Below are positions 19,213 through 32,715 of a stretch of DNA of 32,715 nt, piece after piece. Source of the stretch: a virus; IMG/VR virus record IMGVR_UViG_3300048837_000013, positions 1 through 32,715 of that record. One strand, 5' to 3'. Each line of letters begins with the position of its first letter. Position 1 is the first letter of the stretch. The notes beneath the pieces were generated by a model, which was not told the DNA's origin, made no database searches, and saw nothing but the letters and a program-made list of their open reading frames with translations. Both the position numbers and the translations under genes were made by a program.

Positions 19213-19457
19213 CAGAACATCCTCGGGGCCAACGGGCCAATGACATTGAGCTGCGGCTTGCCGAGCAGCGAGCGCAGGTAGGCGATGTAGGCTTTCAGAT
19301 CGCTCGCCTTCTGCATCGAGTATTCGACGCGCTCACCGTTCTGATCGACATAGACCTTGGCCGACTGCCCGGTCATCAGCTTGTGGTAGGCCGTCTCGGC
19401 GTCCGAGAGCCACGTCGTATACTGCGCGATCTCCTCTGCGGTCAACGTCACAGCCAT
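19212..19457 (-). CDS. Head-tail joining protein, gpW-like (81 aa)
   Basis: The ATG at 19457 overlaps the large terminase stop (TGATG), so I chose it over longer in-frame extensions. The 81-residue product, with 'YHKLMTGQSAKVYVDQNGERVEYSMQKASDLKAYIAYLRSLLGK' as its core, lines up well with lambda gpW ('[23 protein letters not shown]' and 'SDLKKYIAELE'). gpW binds the portal after DNA packaging and is needed before tails attach. Size (lambda 68 aa) and position between terminase and portal both agree. Confidence 0.88.
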   Translation of the reverse strand: MAVTLTAEEIAQYTTWLSDAETAYHKLMTGQSAKVYVDQNGERVEYSMQKASDLKAYIAYLRSLLGKPQLNVIGPLAPRMF

Positions 19458-21580
19458 CAGGCCAAGTCCCTTGCAAGTTTGTCGAAACCATACCTCGGCT
19501 TCTTCTCGGCGTCGAACGGTTTTTCGTCCGTCTCCGGGTCGAAGACAAGATCGTTGTCGTCCCACTCCTCGGCCCAGCCGGGCGGCGAATCAAAAGAGAT
19601 GCGCTCGAAGTTGATCTCAGGAAGCAAACAGGCCGCGAGAGAATATGCAAGCAGGTCCCACGACTCGTTGCGGAACCGCTTCGGGTTGATCCAGCCCTTC
19701 ACCGGGTCTTTGACCTCGACCGTCAGCTCCGTGTAGAAATTGTCCGGCAATCCCTTCGGGAAGTTGATCCGCCCACCGGCCTCTTTCCGGTCGAGCATGT
19801 TGTTCAACGTATCCTTCAGGAGATGGGTGTTCATAAAGCAGACCGGGATTTCGCCTCGCGCCCCGGCGAAGCGGTCCTTCCGTTGGCTGTCCGGGAAATC
19901 CACCTTGATCCGGGGGGCCGTCATCACGGACGCACCCTTCAGGAGCATGAAGCGCCCCGCGAATTCCTGCCGCCAGACGTAATCGCCCTGCTCCTCGCTG
20001 GAGTCCAGCTCCTCGTCTTTCGGGTTACGCAGCCAACGAACGAAGTCGTAGGAGTTTGCGGTCACGCCCGCTTTACCGCCCGAGTCGCAGACCGTGAACC
20101 GGATCGCCATGTGGCGACCCGAGCCATCCGAGAGGGGGTAGGTCTTGTCCATGACCTCGCCGCAGAGGAGCTTCCAGTCCTCCTGATAGGCACCGGGGTT
20201 GACCCACAGGTGTTCCCCGTCATCGTCGAGCCGCTTGGACTTCCTGATCTCGAAGCGATCCACGACGCTCCGGTCCCCGTTCTGGTGAACGCCGACGACC
20301 TGCACGACGAAACGGTTCTTCTGGACGTCCACCGCCGCGATCAGGAACCGGACGCCGGGCGGCACTTCCCCGACTGAGACGCCGCGCGCCCGGCCCTTCA
20401 GCTCCTCGGGCGAACGATCCGAGGCGAGCAGCTTGGGGATGTAGGGCAAGCCCTGATCGACGTTGACCGTCGTCTTCAGGGCCTCCTCGGTGCCGTTCTG
20501 CTGGTAGGTCCGCTCGGCGGTGATGTAGTTGAAGACCAGTGTCTTCCACGTCGAGAAGGCCGCGCAGACCCCCTTCAACCAGAACGAGGCGATGTCCGAC
20601 CGGATGGGAGTCCCGACAATATCGCCGTTCGGCAGCCACACCATGCCGTCCTTGACCCACCGGGCGTTGCGGTTCATCTCGTGCTTGCCCGGCAGCGAAC
20701 CGCCCGCGTCGTGCGGGTATTCCGCGCCGCAATGCGGGCACCGCATGACGGCGGTCTCTGCGGCTTCCATGGCGTCTTCGGTATCCGGGTAGACAAGCAG
20801 GTTGAAATCCGGCTCGAAGGGGAACGTGCAGACGACGCATTTCCAGTAGTAGCGACGGCGGTCGCCCCGGTTGTAAAGCTCCAAGATTCCGCCGTCGGTC
20901 GGGATCGCCTCGTGCTTGGTCGCGGGCATGTATTTCGGGTTCTTGACCGGGCGACCGGGCGAAGACTCGGCGGCGCACATTCCGAAGCGACCGAAGGTCG
21001 TCGCGCGTTTCCGGGCAAGGTCGAAGGGAGAGCCTTCGCCGTCCACGTCCTGCGCCATCCGCTCGTAGTCCGTCAGAAGCAGGCGCGGCACGGGCTTGCC
21101 CGAAAGCTCGTTGATCGTGGGCCAGCTCAGGGTGACGAGCATCCCGGACTGGTAGTGCTTGTCGAACACGTTGTCGGCTTCCTTGGTCGGCAGAAGCGCG
21201 TCTCCGACCACAGTCGAATGCCGGTGGAGACGATCCACCCGGCGCATGGAGAAGTCCCGCGCCGCAGTCTGCGACTTCTCGACGATCATCATGTCGGCAG
21301 GATCGCACTTGACGGTATAGGTCAGCCAATTCAGGCCGATGTCGGTCTTGCCGCATTGCGCCGGTCCCGCGAAGACCCAGCCCGTGTATTCAAGGCTCGC
21401 CAGCTCGTCCATCGGCTCGATCATGTAGGGCGTGGTCTCGTTCAGCCACGGGCCGACGTAGGCACCGGGGTTGTTCAGGTAGCGATACTTGGCCGCAGCC
21501 TCCGAGACCGTCAGGCGCTCTGGCGGGCGGGCGCTCTCTGCCGATTCGACGATCAGCCTTTCGAGGGTAATCATGCCCAT
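19457..21580 (-). CDS. Terminase large subunit, GpA family
   Basis: The ATG at 21580 overlaps the small subunit stop (TGATG); an in-frame ATG two codons later is an alternative. The 707-residue protein has an N-terminal packaging ATPase (Walker A 'GPAQCGKT' at 72-79, Walker B 'LLLTDYE' with Asp171 and Glu173), a zinc-finger-like pair, CVVC (248-251) and CPHC (281-284), and a C-terminal nuclease with Asp418 ('IAAVDVQKNRF') and Asp499 ('VCDSGG'). It cuts concatemeric DNA at cos and pumps it into the procapsid. The GpA family suggests packaging by cohesive ends, though no cos site was identified here. Confidence 0.95.
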   Translation of the reverse strand: MGMITLERLIVESAESARPPERLTVSEAAAKYRYLNNPGAYVGPWLNETTPYMIEPMDELASLEYTGWVFAGPAQCGKTDIGLNWLTYTVKCDPADMMIVEKSQTAARDFSMRRVDRLHRHSTVVGDALLPTKEADNVFDKHYQSGMLVTLSWPTINELSGKPVPRLLLTDYERMAQDVDGEGSPFDLARKRATTFGRFGMCAAESSPGRPVKNPKYMPATKHEAIPTDGGILELYNRGDRRRYYWKCVVCTFPFEPDFNLLVYPDTEDAMEAAETAVMRCPHCGAEYPHDAGGSLPGKHEMNRNARWVKDGMVWLPNGDIVGTPIRSDIASFWLKGVCAAFSTWKTLVFNYITAERTYQQNGTEEALKTTVNVDQGLPYIPKLLASDRSPEELKGRARGVSVGEVPPGVRFLIAAVDVQKNRFVVQVVGVHQNGDRSVVDRFEIRKSKRLDDDGEHLWVNPGAYQEDWKLLCGEVMDKTYPLSDGSGRHMAIRFTVCDSGGKAGVTANSYDFVRWLRNPKDEELDSSEEQGDYVWRQEFAGRFMLLKGASVMTAPRIKVDFPDSQRKDRFAGARGEIPVCFMNTHLLKDTLNNMLDRKEAGGRINFPKGLPDNFYTELTVEVKDPVKGWINPKRFRNESWDLLAYSLAACLLPEINFERISFDSPPGWAEEWDDNDLVFDPETDEKPFDAEKKPRYGFDKLARDLA

Positions 21581-24507: not shown

Positions 24508-26619
24508 TCAGTCCTTCTTCCATACTTTGGTCACGAGGCCAGCGGAACCGAGGGGCATGTCGGGTGCCCACTTCGGCGGTTCATTCATGCACTCACCGAG
24601 GATGTCCAGCGCGTTCGACGCCTTCTCCGACAGCGCCAGCGCCACGCCTTGGTCGTGGACGTGGATTCGCAGGTCCAGACCGCGCCGATCCGCCAGCTTC
24701 AGGCTGTGGGCGAGCAGATCGCGGCTGATCGCTTGGTCCGCGTTCTCCGTGAGCTTGCCCGGATGGGTGGACTGCCGGACCCATTGCTTCCGGTCGTTCA
24801 GGCCCTCGTAGGTGATGGTTTCCTTCATCTCGCCCCACGGGGCTTTGACCTGTTCAAGCCGGGGCCGGACATAGTGCAAGCAGCGACCCGAGGGCAGCTT
24901 CATCCGCATCATCGGACCCTTCATGTCGAAGGTGACGACGCCGTAGCCTGTGCCGAACCTCTGCGGGCGGGACGTGCGAATCGCCTTCTTGGCCGCTCGC
25001 TCGATCCCATACCAGTAATCTTTCACTTCCGAGAATTCGCGCCGGAATGTGTCCACAGAAAGAGCCGATTGTTCTTCCGTGAAATGCTTGACGCCCATAT
25101 CCCAAGCGTATCCGAGCAGACCGTCAGCCTCAATTTCTCCGGTTTTCTTGTTGATCTTCTTCTTGCCTGCCGAAAGCATATAGCCGCAGCCCAGAACGCC
25201 CGGCTTGGAGATAGTCCGTTTCTCGGACTTGCCTTCTTCCTTATACTCCCGCCACAGGTCCTCGTATTTCTCTTTGAACAGGTAGACCGCAAAAGCGATG
25301 TAGGGGTCCTGCTTCATCATAAAGACCCGAAGCATCTTCGGGCATTGGGCCAGCCATGCCAGAACCCGGTTCTCGATGGCGTTCAAGTCCCGGTCCACGA
25401 ACATATAACCGTCCGGGGCTTGCGCCACGGATCGGATGCAGGATGCGAGCAGGTCAAACGGGTTCTGGTAGGCGAGGTCAATCGCCTCCCAATCCAGCTT
25501 CGCCACGTTGTCCGCGTGAGCCTCTATATCCTTCTCGAATACCTTTTCCGGTCGCGGCAGGTTTTGCCCCTGCCATCCGCGCCCGGCCCAACGCCAAGTC
25601 CGAGCGGCCCCGGCAAACTGGAAAGCGCCCCGGAGATTGCCGTCGTCATCTGTGCGCTCGATCAGGGCGTAATACTTCTTGATCGAAGTCCGGGCCGTCT
25701 CCAAGCGAAGGTCAAGCGTGAGCTTCAGGTCTTCGTCGGCAGCGTAATCCAGCCATTGCTCATGCGACCAGTGATCCGGCTTAGTGTCGAAATAGGCGCG
25801 AGCTGTGCGGATGTGTGCCTTCTGGCAGTCATCGAACATATAGCCCCGGCTTTGCATCCACGGCAAAAGCTGCTCGGTAGAATTCGGGTTATTCAGCCCG
25901 GTCGTGTCCCGCATCAGCCCCATGGACTGACTCAGAACGCCCTCATAAACCTTGATGGCATTTCGGGCCATATCAAGGTTGATCGGGATTCCCGCGAAAT
26001 TGATCTTCTGATCGAGATGCCACATCTCCCACTCGTGGTCGGGCATCGGGTTGAATTGAATCAGGCGCTTCCAGATCGCGGTTTCCGCTCGGACGTCCTG
26101 CCGGTTATAGAGGCAGTATAGCTCCCAATCCGTGAGGTCCTGATACCAGTAGGTCCGCACGAGCTGGCCGTAGTCGGCCTTCCGGCGAGAGACCTTGGGC
26201 TTGGAGAATTTCTGGATCAGGCGCGAGCCATGCTCATTCTTCACCATGTCTTCCGGCAGGTCGAGGATCGGCCCGGCCTTTTCCAAGGCCCCCGGCAGCG
26301 AGCAGGCATAGGCCATCACCATCGTGTCGCGCCATTGCTCGATCACGACCGGCCTTTTCAGCGTGTTCCGAAGGATGTTCATCTCGAAATGCGCGTTCCA
26401 TGCCCACTTCTCGACTTCAGGGTCGTCCAGCGCCTCGGACAGCTCCCGAGGCATGTCCATGCCCTGCGCGGCGTCCCACTGGATCGGCTCGCCGCCGTTG
26501 ACGTTGTAGGCCCCCATCAGGACCTCGGTTTCCGGGTGCCGCGAGTATCGAGACGCACCGACCTTCTTCAGATCGGCGGGCGAAAACGTCTCGAAGTCCA
26601 GCGACACCCGGTCCCGCAT
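24508..26619 (-). CDS. Family A DNA polymerase with 3'-5' exonuclease domain
   Basis: The ATG at 26619 overlaps the DUF2815 stop (TGATG). The 703-residue protein has a proofreading domain (exo I 'SLDFET', Asp8/Glu10; exo II 'WNAHFE', 74-79; exo III 'YNRQD', 171-175) and a polymerase domain: motif A 'DLNAIENRVLAWLA' with Asp411, motif B with Lys472 and Tyr480 in 'SKPGVLGCGY', and motif C 'VHDQ' at 654-657. Motif C is normally HDE; here Glu is replaced by Gln, while the metal-binding Asp656 is kept. It is probably the replicative polymerase of the phage, working with the DUF2815 ssDNA-binding protein encoded just upstream. Confidence 0.95.
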   Translation of the reverse strand: MRDRVSLDFETFSPADLKKVGASRYSRHPETEVLMGAYNVNGGEPIQWDAAQGMDMPRELSEALDDPEVEKWAWNAHFEMNILRNTLKRPVVIEQWRDTMVMAYACSLPGALEKAGPILDLPEDMVKNEHGSRLIQKFSKPKVSRRKADYGQLVRTYWYQDLTDWELYCLYNRQDVRAETAIWKRLIQFNPMPDHEWEMWHLDQKINFAGIPINLDMARNAIKVYEGVLSQSMGLMRDTTGLNNPNSTEQLLPWMQSRGYMFDDCQKAHIRTARAYFDTKPDHWSHEQWLDYAADEDLKLTLDLRLETARTSIKKYYALIERTDDDGNLRGAFQFAGAARTWRWAGRGWQGQNLPRPEKVFEKDIEAHADNVAKLDWEAIDLAYQNPFDLLASCIRSVAQAPDGYMFVDRDLNAIENRVLAWLAQCPKMLRVFMMKQDPYIAFAVYLFKEKYEDLWREYKEEGKSEKRTISKPGVLGCGYMLSAGKKKINKKTGEIEADGLLGYAWDMGVKHFTEEQSALSVDTFRREFSEVKDYWYGIERAAKKAIRTSRPQRFGTGYGVVTFDMKGPMMRMKLPSGRCLHYVRPRLEQVKAPWGEMKETITYEGLNDRKQWVRQSTHPGKLTENADQAISRDLLAHSLKLADRRGLDLRIHVHDQGVALALSEKASNALDILGECMNEPPKWAPDMPLGSAGLVTKVWKKD

Positions 26620-27260
26620 CAGATCAGGCTTTCGTCGTCGCCATCGTCGCCCGAATCGCCCAGATCGGCGTCGTCGCCCACCATGTCGTCGGTGAAGCGT
26701 TCGTTCGGGTTGACCGGGGCCGCGCCGAAGGCATCGCCGTCACGCAGGAATTGGACAACTTCCAGCGAAGCGTTCACCCGCTTGCCGTTCTTGTTGTCTT
26801 GGCACCAGAGGCGGATCAGGGCGTTGACGTAGCAGCCCGAGTAGGGGTTGCGCTCGTGGCCCGGCTCGGCCTTGATCCAGTTGCCATCCTTGTCCTTGCG
26901 GTTCGTGATGACCTGCGGGCGGCGATCCACGGACGAGTTGGCCGAGACGTAGAGCATCCCGGCGTAGCCATCCCAATTTTCCAGATCGCCGTCGCGCAGG
27001 CAGATTTTCTCCGGCTTCAGCTTCGGCCAGTCCTTCGGGTTCGACCCCCACTTCTTGGCCTTCGCTTCATCCGCCGCCTTCTTGATCTTGGCGACGTTCT
27101 TGAATTCGTCGCCTTCCTTCGGGATCAGGAAGTTGGCCTTGAAGAAGCGCCGCGTGGTGCCGTCGTCCGACTCCATTTCGCTCGGCTCGTGCAGCGAGGC
27201 GAACGAGAGCCGAACATTGCGAAGCAGGACTTCGCCCACGACCTCTTTCTTGTCCGTCAT
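26619..27260 (-). CDS. Single-strand DNA-binding protein, DUF2815 family
   Basis: The ATG at 27260 follows GGAGAG at good spacing. The 213-residue product has 'LLRNVRLSFASLHEPSE', 'FKANFLIPKEG' and 'NPYSGCYVNALIRLWCQDNKNGKRVNASLEVVQFLRDGDAFG', the pattern of DUF2815, a T7 gp2.5-like OB-fold family. The C-terminal ~20 residues are almost all Asp, Gly and Ser and end '...GDDESLI'. This is an acidic tip of the kind that single-strand binding proteins use to dock partners. The downstream gene is the polymerase, and the two overlap by one base. Confidence 0.9.
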   Translation of the reverse strand: MTDKKEVVGEVLLRNVRLSFASLHEPSEMESDDGTTRRFFKANFLIPKEGDEFKNVAKIKKAADEAKAKKWGSNPKDWPKLKPEKICLRDGDLENWDGYAGMLYVSANSSVDRRPQVITNRKDKDGNWIKAEPGHERNPYSGCYVNALIRLWCQDNKNGKRVNASLEVVQFLRDGDAFGAAPVNPNERFTDDMVGDDADLGDSGDDGDDESLI

Positions 27261-29562: not shown

Positions 29563-32121
29563 ATGGCATCTAACGACGGATTTCAGATTCACTATTCCCT
29601 CGGGACCGGCCTTAGTTTTGGCCGCGCCAAGAACCGAACAGATACTTGGCTGAATTTCAAACGCGACTTCAAGACCCCGATCCAAACCCCCGAAAAGCTC
29701 TCCCAATATCTGAAGCTCTCTGACAAAGAACAGATCGAGCTGAAAGCCCGGAACGGTTGGTTCTACCGGGGTCAAGTCCAAGGAAAACGCCGCAATCGTC
29801 GCTCGGGGATGCCCTCGAATATCGTCACGATTGACCTCGACTATGCCACCCCCGAATTCCTCGAAATGCTCCGTCTCGGCATTATCCTGCCCGAGATCGA
29901 GTATTTCGTCCATTCGTCCCGCCGCCATACTCCCGAAAAGCCCCGCCTGCGGATGGTCGTCCTTCTGAAGACGCCCGTCTCCAAGGAAGACTACTCGGCG
30001 GCGAGCCGCATTCTGGCCCAGAAAATTGACCCCGAAATGGTGTTGGTCGATAAGGTCTCGTTCCGCCCGGCGCAGATGATGTTCCGTCCGACGATCAGCT
30101 CGGACTCGGAATACGTCTTCATCGAGAACAAGGGCCAACCCTATGATTGGGAAGCCGAAAACGACGCATGGGGCGACTGGCACGACATATCGGGCCTGCC
30201 GATCTGCGCGGGCGAGAAACTGCGCGAGACCTCGGACAAGGCCGAAGACCCGACCGAGAAACAGGGCATGGTCGGAGACTTCTGCCGGGCCTACACGATC
30301 CCCGAGGCCATAGAGGCGTTCGACCTGCCCTACGAGGAGTCAGGGGACGCCGACCGCTACACCTTCACGGGCGGCACGACGTCGAACGGGATGCAGGTCT
30401 ACGACGACGGCCTGTTCTGCTACTCGCACCATGGCTCCGACCCGGCCTGTGACCAGCTCTTGAACGCCTTCGATCTGGTCCGCATCCACAAGTTTGCCGC
30501 CCTCGACGACGACGTAGACGACGAGGCACCCCAGAGCCAGCGCCCGAGCTGGAAGGCCATGCAGGACCTCGTTCGAGACGACGCGCGCTACATCAAGGCC
30601 GTCGCGGCCAGCCACTACGACCAGACCGCAATGTTCGACGACCTGCTGTCCGAGGAGGAAGTCACCGAGTCGACCGAGATGGTCCCCTACCACGTCAACG
30701 GCGAGGTTATGGACCCGGAGATCGACGAAATCCTCGGCACCCCGAAGATCATGCTCCCGAAGAAGGCGCGCGGTGCCCCTGTCGATCCTGACTGGTTCTC
30801 GAAGCTGGAAATCAACCCGAGGACCGGCGACATCGAGCCGACCATCGCCAACGTCGCCATGATCCTTCAGAACGACCGACGCCTGCGCGGGGTCTACGAG
30901 CAGAACGAATTCACCAACCGAATCGTCACCCGCCGCCCGCTGAACAGCAAGCTCCCGATCCTGCGCAACAGCGTGATCCACGACCACATGGGCGGCGACC
31001 CGCTGGAAGACATTCACTACTCCAAGGTCCGCGCGATCCTCGAATCGCAGAACGGCAAGGGCAAGGTCGGCTACGGCCTGAAGGTCACGGACAGGGACCT
31101 CTACGGGGCCGTCACGCTGACCGCAGAGCATTGGCCCTTCCACCCGATCCAAGACATCCTGTCGGCCCTGACGTGGGACCAGATCGAGCGGCTGGAAACC
31201 TTCTTCATCCGCTACCTTGGCTGCCCGGACGACGAATACCACCGGGAGGTCGCGGTCAAATTCTTCCTAGCCGGTGTGACCCGCGCCTTCGAGCCGGGCC
31301 ACAAATTCGACTATGCCCCGATCTTGGAAGGCGCACAGGGCGTCCGCAAGTCCACGATGATTCAGGTCATCGCCATGGGCTTCTTCGGAGAGCTGAAGGC
31401 CGACTTCCACGACGAGAAGAAGCTGGTCGAGCAGATGCAGAATTGCTTCGTCATGGAGCTGCCCGAACTGTCCAACTTCAACCGCTCGTCGGTCGAGGAC
31501 ATGAAGGCCCACATCTCCGCGACCGAAAACTACGTCCGCATGTCCTACGGGCGGCAGCCCCAGCGGTTCCTGCGCCAGTGCATCTTCATGGGCAGCACGA
31601 ACAAGGAAACCTACCTGCTGGACGACACCGGCAACCGCCGCTTCTGGCCGTTGAAGGTCATGGTCGAGCAGATCGACATCGACTCGATGCGCCGGGAGAT
31701 CATGCAGGTCTGGGCCGAGGCCGTGGACCTCTATCGCCGGATGCGGGCCGTGCAACCCGAGGGGACCTTGCCCCTCTACCTGACGAGAGAGCGGGCGCAG
31801 GAGATCGCGCAAGAGGCCCAAGAGGCCCGCCGCCAGCTCACCGAGGCAGACAGCTACGCGGACGTTCTGGCCGAGTGGCTGGACACCCCCTACGCCCCGG
31901 ACCCGATGGAGCCGGACACCACGATCCTGCGGGACGAGATCACCACGACCGACATCTGGCAGGCCGGACTCGGCATGAACGGCCTGCCGAAGCGTGGCGA
32001 TACGATGGAGATCAGCAAGGCCATGAAGCGGCTCGGCTGGTCCAAGGTGAAACTCCGCAGGGGGTCGATCACCGTCAACGGCTATGTCAGGCCGAAAACA
32101 GACGGCTCAGAGCTGATCTAA
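29563..32121 (+). CDS. Primase-polymerase / VapE-type SF3 helicase
   Basis: ATG at 29563, with only a weak CAGGG upstream. In this 852-residue protein, residues 85-180 look like an archaeo-eukaryotic-type primase (PrimPol) domain: Asp91/Asp93 in 'TIDLDYA', His117 and His122 in 'FVHSSRRH', and Asp163 in 'LVDKVSFRPAQMMFRP'. Residues 270-310 hold 'YSHHGSDPACDQLLNAFDLVRIH', typical of VapE-linked proteins. The C-terminal helicase has Walker A 'GAQGVRKST' (590-598), acidic 'VMELPEL' (630-636), sensor 'GSTN' (677-680) and 'GNRRFWP'. Such fused proteins prime and unwind at phage and plasmid origins, like the P4 alpha protein. The iteron-rich region lies right downstream. The protein ends 'DGSELI'. 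Confidence 0.88.
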   Translation: MASNDGFQIHYSLGTGLSFGRAKNRTDTWLNFKRDFKTPIQTPEKLSQYLKLSDKEQIELKARNGWFYRGQVQGKRRNRRSGMPSNIVTIDLDYATPEFLEMLRLGIILPEIEYFVHSSRRHTPEKPRLRMVVLLKTPVSKEDYSAASRILAQKIDPEMVLVDKVSFRPAQMMFRPTISSDSEYVFIENKGQPYDWEAENDAWGDWHDISGLPICAGEKLRETSDKAEDPTEKQGMVGDFCRAYTIPEAIEAFDLPYEESGDADRYTFTGGTTSNGMQVYDDGLFCYSHHGSDPACDQLLNAFDLVRIHKFAALDDDVDDEAPQSQRPSWKAMQDLVRDDARYIKAVAASHYDQTAMFDDLLSEEEVTESTEMVPYHVNGEVMDPEIDEILGTPKIMLPKKARGAPVDPDWFSKLEINPRTGDIEPTIANVAMILQNDRRLRGVYEQNEFTNRIVTRRPLNSKLPILRNSVIHDHMGGDPLEDIHYSKVRAILESQNGKGKVGYGLKVTDRDLYGAVTLTAEHWPFHPIQDILSALTWDQIERLETFFIRYLGCPDDEYHREVAVKFFLAGVTRAFEPGHKFDYAPILEGAQGVRKSTMIQVIAMGFFGELKADFHDEKKLVEQMQNCFVMELPELSNFNRSSVEDMKAHISATENYVRMSYGRQPQRFLRQCIFMGSTNKETYLLDDTGNRRFWPLKVMVEQIDIDSMRREIMQVWAEAVDLYRRMRAVQPEGTLPLYLTRERAQEIAQEAQEARRQLTEADSYADVLAEWLDTPYAPDPMEPDTTILRDEITTTDIWQAGLGMNGLPKRGDTMEISKAMKRLGWSKVKLRRGSITVNGYVRPKTDGSELI

Positions 32122-32207
32122 TTTCCGAAATCAGGGAAGTCCCTATTCGTCGCATGGTCGGGCGGTGCCGCAGCGCACGACTCTCCCATACCCAAATTTC
32201 CGAAATC
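32120..32207. repeat. Pair of 13-bp direct repeats, AATTTCCGAAATC
   Basis: Two identical copies, 32120-32132 (overlapping the primase-helicase stop codon) and 32195-32207, 75 bp apart. Each is nearly palindromic (ATTTC-C-GAAAT), so it may be a protein-binding site distinct from the iterons. Confidence 0.6.
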
Positions 32208-32244: not shown

Positions 32245-32278
32245 GGTTGGAACACAGGTTGGAACGAAAGGTTGGAAC
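32245..32278 (+). repeat. Iteron cluster I: three direct GGTTGGAAC copies
   Basis: Exact copies start at 32245, 32257 and 32270, with 12- and 13-bp periods and ACA or GAAA-type spacers. All have the same orientation. Confidence 0.85.
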
Positions 32279-32330
32279 CTCCACTAAGTCTTTGACATGC
32301 TTATGAAAAATCGACCTTCAGGGCCTTCTT

Positions 32331-32348
32331 GTTCCAACCGTTCCGACC
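32331..32348 (-). repeat. Iteron cluster II: two inverted copies
   Basis: GTTCCAACC at 32331-32339 is an exact inverse copy, and GTTCCGACC at 32340-32348 has one mismatch. They abut with a 9-bp period and no spacer. Confidence 0.8.
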
Positions 32349-32454
32349 AACTTCCCATATAGGCGTTTACACGCATCGCCCCTTATAGGCCGTTCGCTGT
32401 CCGGTGCAGGTGGCGACAGCTTCTACAGCTCCGCTTGTGTCTTTATAGGATTTA

Positions 32455-32481
32455 GGTTGGAACGGTTGGAACGGTTGGAAC
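32455..32481 (+). repeat. Iteron cluster III: three tandem GGTTGGAAC copies
   Basis: Three exact copies at 32455, 32464 and 32473 abut with a 9-bp period. An AT-rich stretch follows (about 32482-32505), which could be a melting element. Confidence 0.85.
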
Positions 32482-32509
32482 AAATGAACAAAATCAATGG
32501 GTTACGGAT

Positions 32510-32556
32510 GTTCCAACCTGTGTTCCAACCTAGAGAGGTTGGAACACAGGTTGGAC
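32510..32556. repeat. Iteron cluster IV: 20-bp perfect inverted repeat with 4-nt loop
   Basis: Two inverted copies (32510-32518, 32522-32530) face two direct ones (32537-32545 exact; 32549-32557 degenerate). Bases 32512-32531 and 32536-32555 are perfectly complementary over 20 bp around the loop AGAG. This can extrude as a cruciform or fold as a hairpin in single-stranded form. Confidence 0.85.
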
Positions 32557-32715
32557 AACCCCAGATTGGCCCCCCAAAATCGGAAAAAATCCAGTAAGAA
32601 TTCTCGAATTTTCCCGAAATTGTGGCAGACCGGGGCTCCGCGCACCCCCCGGACGACCCCCCGGAGATAGGTAAGGACCCATGCCATACTTTCAATCGCG
32701 GCGTTACCGCTAACA

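Follow-up and report, generated by a model that had tools for sequence, protein, structure and literature searches.

A probable SaPI/PICI-type replication origin in a tailed phage: an iteron array with a recurring spacing pattern next to a VapE-type initiator helicase gene

To our knowledge, most tailed-phage origins are unmapped. In the virus contig analysed here (32,715 bp, hereafter the window), twelve copies of one short word, GGTTGGAAC, are crowded together next to the gene of an 852-aa primase-helicase, and this raises the question of what the array is for and whether the neighbouring protein reads it. A sequence-only reading had proposed a P4-like phage origin with a 20-bp hairpin, tied to that protein and served by a polymerase and a single-stranded DNA-binding protein of the phage's own.

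The phage, its initiator helicase and the repeat array

The large terminase of the window is closest to that of Synechococcus phage S-ESS1, a member of the Casjensviridae (64%), followed by those of Achromobacter and Ruegeria phages (52-53%), and therefore the window belongs to a tailed phage, roughly of the Casjensviridae kind. PICIs are satellites without a full virion gene set of their own; the window, in contrast, encodes a terminase like that of the tailed phage S-ESS1, the virion gene set being judged on this gene rather than on an annotation of the other virion genes one by one. The family A polymerase and the ssDNA-binding protein that had been claimed for this phage are both found by profile matches (Table 1).

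The record is linear and ends 158 bp past the array, so one flank of the array is missing. Contig ends of this sort are frequent in related genomes: the contig ends less than 1.3 kb after the VapE stop codon in 8 of the 19 nearest relatives (L134, L135, L138-L140, L146, L147, and L150) as against 4 of 141 other VapE loci, while none of the 19 has a contig start that close before the VapE gene. This suggests that a genome end lies close to the origin.

The 852-aa protein matches VapE (PF05272, E 4e-71, residues 533-756) and the helicase family phrog_256, and its N-terminus matches the DNA primase family phrog_9765 (residues 9-354) as well as phrog_3228. Some AsfvPrimPol alignments with its structural model start at residue 12, and no Toprim match was found in the protein with Pfam. 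For the helicase and C-terminal part, PriRep1 (PDB code: 7pds) is the best match both by sequence (phmmer E 2.6e-47; profile E 8e-103) and by structure, since the AlphaFold model (mean pLDDT 87.5) aligns with it at Z 32.9 over 415 residues between model positions 409 and 850. Overall, the protein is of the VapE/PriRep1 kind with an N-terminal primase of the archaeo-eukaryotic type.

The C-terminal end of the model is read as a winged helix, with helices at residues 761-774, 795-802, and 811-823 and wing strands at 827-833 and 836-842, mostly at a pLDDT of about 90. When the C-terminal 93 residues were searched alone, no clear solved relative was found. A combined alignment of 15 VapEs was also tried as a search query and was rejected as too diverse.

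Table 1. Positions of the replication genes, the large terminase gene, and the elements of the array in the window.
Feature	Position	Strand	Basis
Large terminase (GpA)	19457..21580		
Family A DNA polymerase	24508..26619	-	phrog_17 E 4e-105; Pfam DNA_pol_A below cut-off
Gp2.5/Enc34-type ssDNA-binding protein	26619..27260	-	PF10991 E 2.6e-33; phrog_112
PrimPol-VapE initiator helicase gene, 852 aa	29563..32121	+	Pfam, PHROG, model match
C-terminal winged-helix region, residues 761-845, likely iteron reader	31843..32097	+	AlphaFold model, covariation
Extra trio of iterons, spaced by 12 and 13 bp	32245..32278	+	repeat scan
Element D: two 9-bp tandem iterons, inverted; 1 mismatch in the second	32331..32348	-	
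D-C spacer, 106 bp, TATAGG boxes at 32358, 32384, and 32444; likely melting region	32349..32454	.	
Element C: three exact 9-bp tandem iterons	32455..32481	+	
Element B: two iterons at 12 bp, opposite in orientation to C	32510..32530	-	
Element A: two iterons at 12 bp, facing B; 2 mismatches in the second	32537..32557	+	
A/B inverted repeat: perfect 20-bp arms, 4-nt loop	32512..32555	.	

The array (32245-32557) starts 124 bp past the stop codon of this gene. A scan of the whole window returned ten exact copies of GGTTGGAAC, on the plus strand at 32245, 32257, 32270, 32455, 32464, 32473, and 32537 and on the minus strand at 32331, 32510, and 32522, together with two degenerate copies, GGTCGGAAC at 32340 (minus strand, one mismatch) and GGTTGGACA at 32549 (plus strand, two mismatches). 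When the whole window was shuffled 100 times with dinucleotides preserved, exact copies numbered 0.19 on average and 2 at most. The copies form four clusters, namely a direct trio at 12 and 13 bp, an inverted 9-bp pair, a direct 9-bp triple, and two 12-bp pairs that face each other across a gap of 6 bp. These facing pairs form the arms of the 20-bp inverted repeat (32512-32531 and 32536-32555), which as single-stranded DNA fold at -25.6 kcal/mol (z -8.9). Copy number, clusters, and inverted repeat were thus all as the sequence-only reading had described them.

No 9-mer occurs five or more times in any other 350-bp stretch of the window, and the array has neither an Rfam match nor a tRNA. A promoter-like match at 32552-32580 is at about chance level (one found, 0.5 expected). 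A literature search for GGTTGGAAC gave only unrelated sequence matches among the matches listed. The GC skew, which had been suggested as a marker of the origin, drops right up to the contig end, so no minimum can be marked there. Two copies of the 13-bp sequence AATTTCCGAAATC, identical and 75 bp apart, lie in the gap that separates the VapE stop codon from the array (32120-32207).

Arrays after VapE genes and their spacing

Scans for GGTTGGAAC revealed intergenic arrays directly after VapE genes in seven other loci (L011, L012, L017, L031, L038, L047, and L090), and in L049 the array follows a VapE-like C-terminus. Most of these arrays have copies in both orientations, and the helicases beside them are only about 24-35% identical to that of the window. 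Since these loci were picked by the word, they show association and not frequency. Many matches in public contigs were set aside because they consist of two or three copies and lie within long reading frames.

When the gap after the VapE stop was inspected without presetting the word, many cultured phages were found to have a repeat of their own there. With an array defined as at least six copies of one 8-mer family in 450 bp, arrays lie downstream of VapE in 113 of 175 distinct loci and upstream in 22 of 159 (p 4.6e-24); the held-out set gave a similar result, with 69/97 downstream and 17/88 upstream (p 4e-15), and none of its loci has three or more copies of GGTTGGAAC. About a third of the VapE loci have no array by the 8-mer criterion. 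The closest relative found, L134, whose VapE helicase part is 65% identical to that of the window, has nine copies of GGTCCTAT in place of GGTTGGAAC. An absence of repeats from close relatives, which would have counted against the sequence-only reading, is thus not what L134 shows: it retains an array, but the word as such is not conserved.

The word varies from phage to phage, whereas the spacing is retained. In the shared order, a 12-bp pair is followed after about 36 bp by an inverted 9-bp pair and, beyond a further stretch of about 94 bp that contains TATAG boxes, by another inverted 9-bp pair. Two modules were defined from it in arrays with unrelated words: B-C, in which a 12-14-bp pair faces an 8-10-bp pair across 28-50 bp (commonly 36), and C-D, in which inverted 8-10-bp pairs are 80-115 bp apart (commonly 94). 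In the 58 loci of the defining set, B-C is present in 23 (null 0.85, max 4) and C-D in 17 (null 0.53, max 4). Because the thresholds were chosen after these loci had been seen, they were applied unchanged to 53 held-out arrays, obtained in two further scans, whose VapE C-termini differ from those seen in the first set. B-C was found in 17/53 (null 0.55, max 3) and C-D in 24/53 (null 0.46, max 3). As the loci share descent, the permutation nulls of both sets should not be taken as exact probabilities.

Both modules are present in the window, in mirrored order: B-C (9,30,12), with a gap of about 28-30 bp, and C-D (9,106,9). The arrays of L134, L136, and L139 are mirrored likewise. In 56 of 65 loci, the largest gap has a higher AT content than its array, and over the 65 loci TATAG is enriched in VapE-type arrays (122 observed, 45 in shuffles). 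The D-C spacer of the window (AT 0.48) exceeds the genome in AT content (AT about 0.38, GC about 0.62), but does not exceed the whole array (0.50). This spacing grammar and its reach look new and appear to be undescribed in the literature searched.

The similarity of iterons climbs with the identity of the winged helices, from a median of 0.38 to 0.99 over 133 loci. In a partial Mantel test on these loci, the correlation with the winged helix given the helicase core is 0.133 (p 0.001), and that with the core given the winged helix is -0.017 (p 0.67); the effect is clear, though small, kinship among the loci is only partly removed, and the region had been narrowed to winged helix plus wing after a first-pass result. 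That first pass had used 58 loci and given a weak signal (simple r 0.06, p 0.16; partial 0.093, p 0.03). Judging from these sequence comparisons, the iteron word tracks the C-terminal winged helix and not the helicase core, and the winged helix is the likely iteron reader.

Proposed function and alternative explanations

From the array, its recurrence, and its covariation, all of which were computed, we infer that the array very probably functions as a phage replication origin of the SaPI/PICI (PriRep1) type, with the adjacent VapE protein as its initiator. The arrays after VapE genes, the spacing grammar, the covariation with the winged helix, the homology to PriRep1, and the parallels with SaPI/PICI and pRN1 all argue for this. 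Counting against it are the spacer that is not AT-richer than the array, the VapE loci without an array, the GC skew that marks no minimum, and the arrays of GGTTGGAAC on records without VapE. Two of the last (L018 3662-3818 and L295 6628-6752) are on one record, and similar ones are found in L008/L024, L014, L021, and L025. In this group, one array lies between the genes of terminase and portal, with a gap of about 96 bp, and the other follows the gene of a BT4734-like/PriCT_2 primase-helicase; GGTTGGAAC may be read there by another initiator.

Facing pairs and perfect palindromes are typical of operators, and plasmids often use extra iterons for copy-number control. The array could accordingly be an operator array, bound by a repressor or by VapE itself in the sole role of a transcriptional autoregulator. 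This is very unlikely, since the array is 3' of the gene with a single promoter-like match at about chance level, the same spacing follows VapE despite many different neighbouring genes, and PICIs and pRN1 have proven origins with this layout (PMC6092414, PMC4234260). A packaging or cos-adjacent site bound by terminase, with the contig ending just beyond, would fit the contig ends near VapE in 8/19 nearest relatives against 4/141, by which a genome end may be near. It is an even less probable account, because arrays occur mid-genome after VapE in many phages, such as EFP1 and Paenibacillus Bob, the word tracks the VapE winged helix, and the terminase gene is more than 10 kb from the array.

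The least probable of the three alternatives is recognition of the origin by structure and not by iterons, with a hairpin or cruciform being extruded as has been proposed for pRN1 and Bordetella phage BIP-1. The 20-bp palindrome does fold well, and the pRN1 origin has been described as a stem-loop (PMC4234260). However, relatives retain the spacing and orientation of the pairs without a perfect palindrome, their A/B pairs being unequally spaced at 9 and 12, and the arms of both BIP-1 (seen via BPP-1) and pRN1 resolve into 9-bp tandem pairs. What is conserved is therefore pairs, spacings, and orientation, and the hairpin emphasised in the sequence-only reading is better described as the two facing pairs A and B. 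The link to the adjacent primase-helicase proposed there has gained from both comparisons it called for, as arrays recur beside VapE homologues and the word covaries with the C-terminal part. Its suggestion of several binding modes agrees with the different spacings and orientations of the shared grammar, while the roles it proposed for the separate clusters find no support outside the shared spacing.

The iteron origin read by VapE can be potentially described as follows. The VapE-type initiator helicase from the adjacent gene would recognise and bind GGTTGGAAC via its C-terminal winged helix, and the inverted 9-bp sets D and C would place two hexamers head to head, flanking the 106-bp stretch. 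This stretch, with its TATAGG boxes, would then be melted; the fused PrimPol would prime, and the phage PolA and ssDNA-binding protein would extend. The 12-bp pairs B and A may form a second, differently spaced assembly or a control site.

Comparison with known systems

The kind of origin proposed here is already known, and the array would be another case of it. In SaPIs, Rep uses its C-terminal domain to read iterons that lie immediately 3' of the rep gene (PMC7581432), and two hexamers are described as being loaded head to head at these origins (PMC9894130). PICI origins are also located just 3' of rep, where two iteron sets flank an AT-rich region; a pri-rep-ori plasmid replicates, and the layout was stated to be common to no other known bacterial replicon (PMC6092414). 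The window resembles these systems in its homologous initiator helicase, in its iterons directly 3' of the gene, in two iteron sets on either side of a spacer that may be the melting region, and in a C-terminal domain predicted to be the reader. It differs in that it belongs to a tailed phage with its own PolA and ssDNA-binding protein, has the 12-bp pairs A/B as an extra level, and has the array mirrored relative to the gene. Similar arrays are present in the three streptococcal satellites that were checked. In the Streptococcus mitis satellite Javan312 (L301), GGTTGGAA repeats, nearly the word of the window, follow a VapE-type gene.

Like P4 alpha, the protein would combine winged-helix origin binding, helicase, and primase, and both systems have short origin repeats; P4 alpha, however, has a TOPRIM primase (PMC4234260). 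As the protein of the window is of the VapE/PriRep1 kind and the layout is that of SaPI/PICI, the label 'P4-like' is not supported. No second array comparable to the distant cis site crr was found within the 32.7-kb window, which is a fragment. In Streptococcus thermophilus phage Sfi21, a short noncoding element acts as an origin and as phage-encoded resistance (PMC6356513). The comparison was made with S. thermophilus phage SW6, which has GGTTACCGT-type repeats after its helicase and differs from the window in being AT-rich, in its word, and in a poorer fit to the spacing grammar.

In the crenarchaeal plasmid pRN1, a 'stem-loop' of 100 bp located 3' of the initiator gene is required for origin function and suffices for it, and for Bordetella phage BIP-1 a stem-loop without iterons was proposed (PMC4234260). 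Both share with the window a PrimPol-SF3-winged helix protein, an element just 3' of its gene, and inverted 9-bp tandem pairs inside that element; unlike the window, they are minimal, lack the A/B module, and were published as stem-loops, not as iterons. The BIP-1 element was read here from the BPP-1 sequence (L304), where, downstream of bbp29, GTTTGCCTCGTTTGCCTC faces GAGGCAAACGAGGCAAGC about 72 bp away as two inverted 9-bp tandem pairs. In the arms of pRN1, TGTCCA occurs twice at 9 bp, inverted across a 58-bp loop. By sequence, the fit of BPP-1 to the inverted-pair core is clear, while that of pRN1 rests on a 6-bp match.

We lean slightly towards a single grammar for the PrimPol/SF3-winged-helix initiators of tailed phages, PICIs, and archaeal plasmids, in which 9-bp inverted pairs lie about 60-110 bp apart, many phages add a 12-bp pair about 36 bp away, and spacing and orientation stay fixed while the word drifts with the winged helix. 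If so, what was described as stem-loop origins in pRN1 and BIP-1 would in fact be inverted 9-bp iteron pairs, and PICI origins would lose the uniqueness claimed for them, which bears on both the PICI-only layout statement (PMC6092414) and the pRN1 stem-loop model (PMC4234260). A spacing rule that outlasts changes of the word would make origin and cognate initiator predictable from sequence in many VapE phages, and VapE arrays would offer natural protein-DNA pairs for learning how a winged helix reads its iteron.
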